DNA from: Microcaldota archaeon
GTDB lineage: Archaea; Micrarchaeota; Micrarchaeia; Micrarchaeales; Micrarchaeaceae
Assembly: GCA_021816885.1 (NCBI GenBank)
Contig: JAKAWS010000010.1
Location: 1-37,591 of the forward strand
Length of the DNA stretch: 37,591 nt
Direction: 5' to 3'
The notes beneath the pieces were generated by a model. That model saw only the letters and a program-made list of their open reading frames with translations. It was not told the DNA's origin and did no database searches. A program made the translations under genes and the position numbers. This document shows positions 2,515-37,564 of the stretch, in pieces; position 1 is the stretch's first letter; every line of letters starts with the position of its first letter.

Positions 2515-2528
2515 TAAAATATATATAC
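2515..2528. promoter_or_regulatory. Bidirectional TATA element (tRNA-Cys and CBS gene)
   Basis: An A/T-only run, TAAAATATATATAC, is centred near 2522. It lies 29 nt before the 5' end of tRNA-Cys on the plus strand and 37 nt before the CBS-gene start on the minus strand. The near-palindromic TATA core could serve both directions, since no other TATA candidate is present between the two genes. Confidence 0.6.
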
Positions 2529-2550: not shown

Positions 2551-2634
2551 GCCAGGATGGCAGATTGGCTATGCGGCCGCCTGCAGAGCGGCTTAGGGGG
2601 GTTCGACACTATTGCGAAAATCCCTCTCCTGGCT
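2551..2634 (+). tRNA. tRNA-Cys(GCA) with probable 13-nt T-loop intron
   Basis: The acceptor stem pairs 2551-2557 with 2627-2633, and the discriminator is T2634 (U73, typical of tRNA-Cys). The anticodon stem pairs 2576-2580 with 2588-2592 around loop CTGCAGA, giving anticodon GCA. The T-stem pairs 2597-2601 with 2622-2626. The T-loop is 20 nt (2602-2621) instead of 7. A bulge-helix-bulge fits exactly: TTCG (2602-2605) pairs with CGAA (2615-2618), flanked by 3-nt bulges 2606-2608 and 2619-2621. Standard cutting between bulge positions 2 and 3 removes 2608-2620 (13 nt) and leaves TTCGACT, that is, an intron at position 59/60. Non-canonical intron positions are known in archaeal tRNAs. The gene lies 4 nt from the convergent archease gene. 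Confidence 0.88.
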
Positions 2635-37461: not shown

Positions 37462-37489
37462 CATCAACACATATAACTCCACAAAAAAG

Positions 37490-37564
37490 TGCTCCTGTCG
37501 GGATTTGGACCCGAGTTTCGGCCTTGAGAGGGCCGCGTCCTTGACCGAGCTAGACGACAGGAGC
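37490..37564 (-). tRNA. tRNA-Glu(CTC)
   Basis: The acceptor GCTCCTG pairs with CAGGAGC (minus strand), discriminator A. The D-stem is GTC/GAC. The anticodon stem CGGCC/GGCCG encloses CTCTCAA, giving anticodon CTC. The T-stem TCGGG/CCCGA has loop TCCAAAT, again with C in place of U at position 55, as in tRNA-Val. There is no intron. Its promoter would lie to the right and is partly outside the window. Confidence 0.94.

Follow-up and report, generated by a model that had tools for sequence, protein, structure and literature searches.

The window (the whole stretch of DNA analysed, 37,591 nt) contains a tRNA-Cys(GCA) gene at positions 2551-2634 that reads as complete apart from its T-loop (Table 1). 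Its acceptor stem (2551-2557/2627-2633) is paired at seven of seven positions and is followed by the discriminator T2634 (T73), the anticodon stem GCCGC/GCGGC closes the loop CTGCAGA with the anticodon GCA, and the T-stem consists of GGGGG (2597-2601) and CCCTC (2622-2626). The T-loop between them (2602-2621) is 20 nt long, TTCG-ACA-CTATTG-CGAA-AAT, and excision of 2608-2620 from it leaves the standard 7-nt loop TTCGACT. An AT-rich stretch lies about 25-30 nt upstream of the gene, and an archease gene faces it tail to tail, with its stop codon 4 nt away. Elsewhere in the window, a small gene and, after it, a gene for a PIN-domain protein (PF01850) at 107-824 together resemble a VapBC-type toxin-antitoxin pair. 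A tRNA-Glu(CTC) is found near the ends of two contigs, at 37489-37564 of the window and at C21:1487-1561, and the assembly may have divided a single locus into these two.

Table 1. Features of the tRNA-Cys locus (window positions) and further tRNAs with T-loop introns (contig:position)
Feature	Position	Strand	Content or basis
AT-rich TATATATA, plausible archaeal box A promoter	2517..2527	+	sequence
5' exon of tRNA-Cys(GCA)	2551..2607	+	acceptor, anticodon, T-stem, T-loop nt 54-59 (TTCGAC)
Central 4-bp helix, 5' strand TTCG (U54 U55 C56 G57)	2602..2605	+	pairs with 2615-2618; covariation
13-nt intron ACTATTGCGAAAA, T-loop 59/60	2608..2620	+	intronless homologues match spliced sequence over the junction
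Central helix, 3' strand CGAA, intronic	2615..2618	+	homologue register and covariation
3-nt bulge AAT, predicted 3' cut 2620/2621	2619..2621	+	sequence; homologues
3' exon: T60, T-stem 2622-2626, acceptor 2627-2633, T73	2621..2634	+	sequence
Archease, 145 aa	2639..3076	-	Pfam PF01951, E 2.1e-24; synteny
T-loop-introned tRNAs L016, L034-L036, L039-L042	C12:15393, C17:10521, C14:1180, C21:3560	minus for C21:3560	
T-loop-introned tRNA L032	C12:42806		
T-loop-introned tRNA L074	C6:21809		

The predicted cuts, 2607/2608 and 2620/2621, each fall after the second base of their three-base element. Both the central 4-bp helix (TTCG/CGAA) and the 3-nt bulge at the 3' splice site (AAT), which BHB and BHL substrates have in common, are found. 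A second 3-nt bulge with an inner helix, which belongs to the full BHB only and is dispensable in a BHL, is lacking: the stable inner (h') helix is absent, and 2606-2614 form a 9-nt loop with no more than one or two pairs. The lack of this helix makes the splice motif of this tRNA-Cys a bulge-helix-loop (BHL, or relaxed) rather than a full BHB; such a helix is present in other tRNAs of the genome, namely three Arg. An earlier sequence-only reading of this DNA had described an "exact BHB geometry", which stands for the 4-bp helix, the AAT bulge and the cut positions but not for the motif as a whole, while its 20-nt T-loop and spliced loop TTCGACT agree with the sequence. It had also held that the tRNA cannot fold fully before splicing. 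This applies to the T-loop and elbow, whereas the acceptor, anticodon and T stems are kept in the predicted precursor fold. Nor is the size of the intron, described in that reading as near the known minimum, exceptional: beside its 13 nt stand the 11-nt inserts of the same genome, which occur in the T-loop of Leu CAA and as ARAGORN-called introns in tRNA-Thr and tRNA-Gly.

To follow the distribution of the insert, the predicted spliced form (71 nt) was used as a query against 59 related genomes, and the tRNA-Cys was read in 50 of them. Uninterrupted tRNA-Cys genes of relatives match the query over all 71 bases, across the junction and with up to 96% identity, indicating that a normal tRNA results from removal of the intron; in other relatives, the alignment is interrupted where the junction is predicted. 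In the gene itself, the 5' exon matches the 5' part of the spliced form at 100% and the match breaks off there, leaving a 14-nt match of the 3' exon to the 3' end of the query. An insert of 13-29 nt is found at exactly 59/60 in 19 of the 50 genes and is missing from 31, a count in which G013 and G038, whose T-loops start with C, were taken as intronless after re-reading by eye. The spliced loops (TTCGACT, TTCGATT or TTCGAAT) resemble the intronless loops, TTCRAYT, and the three-base element corresponding to AAT ends in T in all 19 introned homologues.

The pairing between exon and intron is conserved in a specific register. All four central pairs are present in exact register in 17 of the 19 introned tRNA-Cys genes and in none at eight shifted registers, and shuffled introns reach the full 4-bp register in 2% of cases; the two remaining homologues (G012 and G022) have three of the four pairs. 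In a sister genome (G001), the 5' exon is 98% identical over 60 nt and the intron measures 15 nt instead of 13, with the pairing kept. Among 44 distinct T-loop introns, exon and intron bases covary (A57-U in 25, G57-C in 18, C55-G in 2), paired cells amount to 98.7% in register versus at most 63% when the introns are slid, and none of 500 shuffles reaches the observed covariation score. Presence and absence in relatives and covariation thus both agree with the 13-nt intron at 59/60, positions 2608-2620, that had been read from the sequence alone.

The gene escapes standard tRNA detection. ARAGORN missed it, it is not among the loci listed by a search of its genome with RF00005, and the sole tRNA-like match in Rfam is to tRNA-Sec, at 23.3 bits, below the gathering score of 47. 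A covariance model made from four tRNAs of the same genome (Lys and three Arg), with Cys left out, recovered 2551-2634 over its full length and aligned the helix (44 bits, E 3.5e-8). Because both ARAGORN and the Rfam tRNA model miss the gene, the lineage would falsely seem to be without tRNA-Cys and several other tRNAs. A second intact tRNA-Cys(GCA), for which the sequence-only reading had proposed to look, was not found in the 795-kb draft genome (93.65% complete, 21 contigs), nor was one found in the single-contig relatives G009, G010, G025 and G031, which bear the same insert.

These searches bear on the view that decay has made the locus a tRNA-Cys pseudogene whose T-loop took up a random insertion, the cell being served by an intact copy elsewhere. 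The genome does hold a copy of tRNA-Arg(TCG) that bears an intron and has decayed (L075), and its assembly is incomplete, but all stems of the tRNA-Cys are perfectly paired, the 5' exon is nearly unchanged in the sister genome while an intron of different length keeps its pairing, and the relatives assembled in a single contig offer no alternative copy either; decay is thus very improbable. That the tRNA might function unspliced, with an enlarged 20-nt T-loop, would be compatible with the folding of the other stems in the precursor. This too is highly unlikely, as the T-loop bases that form the elbow are paired to the insert, 31 of 50 genomes lack the insert and its length elsewhere varies between 13 and 29 nt, the conserved pairing is exactly what EndA requires, and the ARMAN-2 homologue is reported to be cut in vitro (PMC12397907). 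A helix arising by chance, or a locus encoding another RNA such as the tRNA-Sec of the Rfam match, is scarcely conceivable given the register-specific pairing and the close match of the spliced form to ordinary tRNA-Cys genes, and the tRNA-Sec identity itself is rejected by homology and by the anticodon GCA, found together with a 7-bp acceptor and a 5-bp T-stem.

The splicing endonuclease of this genome (EndA) is a single 386-aa protein that matches 4fz2/9w2k over its full length (E 2.2e-164). It has Y160, K161 and Y236 as well as the equivalents of H251, K282, R275 and W384. With one three-unit protein, the catalytic Tyr/His/Lys and the ARMAN-specific loop Tyr160-Lys161, it carries all key residues of the epsilon2 (ARMAN-type) enzymes, to which its sequence assigns it. 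A gene for the ligase RtcB is also present. The EndA gene adjoins a tRNA-Lys(CTT) gene with a T-loop intron in this genome and in the sister genome (L041, L048); it also lies beside a tRNA gene in G025, G026, G020 and G056, and adjoins archease in G015.

The sequence-only reading had drawn attention to the archease gene, which lies where it was said to lie, 4 nt from the tRNA; the tie to the intron that this had suggested was not borne out. Of 57 genomes of the order, 34 have tRNA-Cys and archease tail to tail within 5 kb, and both intron-bearing and intronless genomes are among them. Those with the intron show close adjacency (<100 nt) more often than the others, 10/19 versus 2/38 (Fisher p 1e-4, raw), but a phylogeny-aware pair test, in which independent pairs were too few, gave no association. 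A link between archease and intron was rejected on these grounds, and the adjacency is an old gene order of this archaeal order, a conserved neighbourhood that is not specific to the intron.

Presence and absence in relatives, covariation, the ARMAN-type endonuclease and the failure to find a second tRNA-Cys give strong support to the intron, to its boundaries and to the prediction that the splicing endonuclease removes it. Very probably, then, the tRNA-Cys(GCA) is interrupted at 59/60 by a 13-nt relaxed-type archaeal intron that the epsilon2 EndA cuts and that RtcB and archease deal with by joining the halves. The gene, its insert and pairing, their distribution in relatives and the genes for endonuclease, RtcB and archease can be read directly in the DNA, and from them we infer the following course in this organism. 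Transcription would yield a precursor in which the T-loop bases UUCG (54-57) pair with the intronic CGAA, forming the central 4-bp helix beside the T-stem. The epsilon2 endonuclease would then cut at the predicted sites, after C2607 and after A2620, and RtcB, aided by archease, would ligate the halves to give the 7-nt loop. Half of the central helix would be supplied by the near-invariant U54-U55-C56-R57. Because T-loop bases 54-57 are nearly invariant, any insert at 59/60 that ends in about YGAA plus NN would make a substrate, which is probably why many tRNAs of the lineage use this position; plausibly, the near invariance of U54-R57 makes 59/60 a favoured intron site.

Seven more T-loop inserts at 59/60 were found in the same genome, in tRNA-Lys(CTT), Arg(TCG), Arg(TCT), Arg(CCT), Leu(CAA), His(GTG) and Pro(GGG). 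Those of Lys, the three Arg, Leu and His are about 11-30 nt long, and ARAGORN misses those tested. The tRNA-Pro(GGG) gene (L076, C8:95230-95335) apparently has two T-arm inserts, one at 59/60 and another of about 17 nt between 53 and 54. The decayed tRNA-Arg(TCG) copy mentioned above (C17:11246-11348) lies some 620 nt downstream of its intact counterpart and has kept its intron nearly whole. Among the genomes of the R1 survey whose best locus was read, 30 of 30 have T-loop inserts at 59/60, a survey that favours this geometry by construction, whereas the tRNA-Cys survey is free of such bias. Matches of the R1 model measure 102-131 nt in other families of the class (e.g., G093, G078, G096, G095, G072), lengths that suggest T-loop introns outside the order as well.

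A minimum of six changes of state is required to explain the Cys intron on the endonuclease tree, two of them forced by well-supported branches. It is possible, if still somewhat doubtful, that in the Micrarchaeum order the T-loop position 59/60 is a recurrent landing site, where introns may repeatedly come and go and move from one tRNA to another in concert with the relaxed epsilon2 endonuclease; with bases 54-57 nearly invariant, one type of insert ending in about YGAA plus NN would fit almost any tRNA. Present with the intron in 19 genomes and without it in 31, this one tRNA gene provides a natural set for studying intron gain and loss, useful also for the tolerance of epsilon2 endonucleases towards substrates that have no inner helix. 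A literature search found no tRNA-by-tRNA listing of T-loop 59/60 introns for Micrarchaeota.

Crenarchaeal lineages have (alpha-beta)2 endonucleases with a Crenarchaea-specific loop, unlike the present genome, whose enzyme is epsilon2 with the ARMAN-specific loop. Non-canonical tRNA introns of the T-arm have been reported in Caldiarchaeum and other archaea, and resemble the present one in having a relaxed or full BHB in the T-arm and in being removed by the splicing endonuclease (PMC3293823, PMC6379350). Permuted tRNA genes in Thermofilum pendens and Cyanidioschyzon merolae are likewise joined at 59/60 (PMC3218864), and share with the tRNA-Cys gene this position and a BHB-type processing. In those genes, however, the halves are reversed, with the 3' half upstream of the 5' half, while the exons read here are in normal order, 5' then 3', which rules out a permuted tRNA of the 59/60 type.

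The closest counterpart is found in a member of the same family, Candidatus Micrarchaeum acidiphilum ARMAN-2, whose crystallised endonuclease (PDB 4fz2) is identical over 380 aa to the EndA of genome G018. The single tRNA-Cys of G018 has a 13-nt T-loop insert, ACGAATGCGAAAA, at the same place and a normal 7-nt anticodon loop, and no insert other than the T-loop one is visible in it. One report describes cleavage in vitro of the ARMAN-2 pre-tRNA-Cys(GCA) by the epsilon2 endonuclease as a "BHL-type" substrate (PMC12397907); judging from G018, the intron of that substrate would be the T-loop insert. The two pre-tRNAs agree in tRNA, intron position, 13-nt length, TTCG/CGAA helix, AAT bulge and endonuclease type, and the ARMAN-2 gene likewise has archease as its tail-to-tail neighbour, with 5 nt between the gene and the Pfam match. 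They differ at some exon positions and at several inner bases of the intron, and cleavage is reported for the ARMAN-2 molecule only (PMC12397907). A 13-nt T-loop insert is found in the tRNA-Cys of Candidatus Micrarchaeum sp. A_DKE (NZ_CP060530.1) too. The T-loop intron of tRNA-Cys is therefore of a type already known, shared by close relatives and represented by a published test substrate in ARMAN-2.
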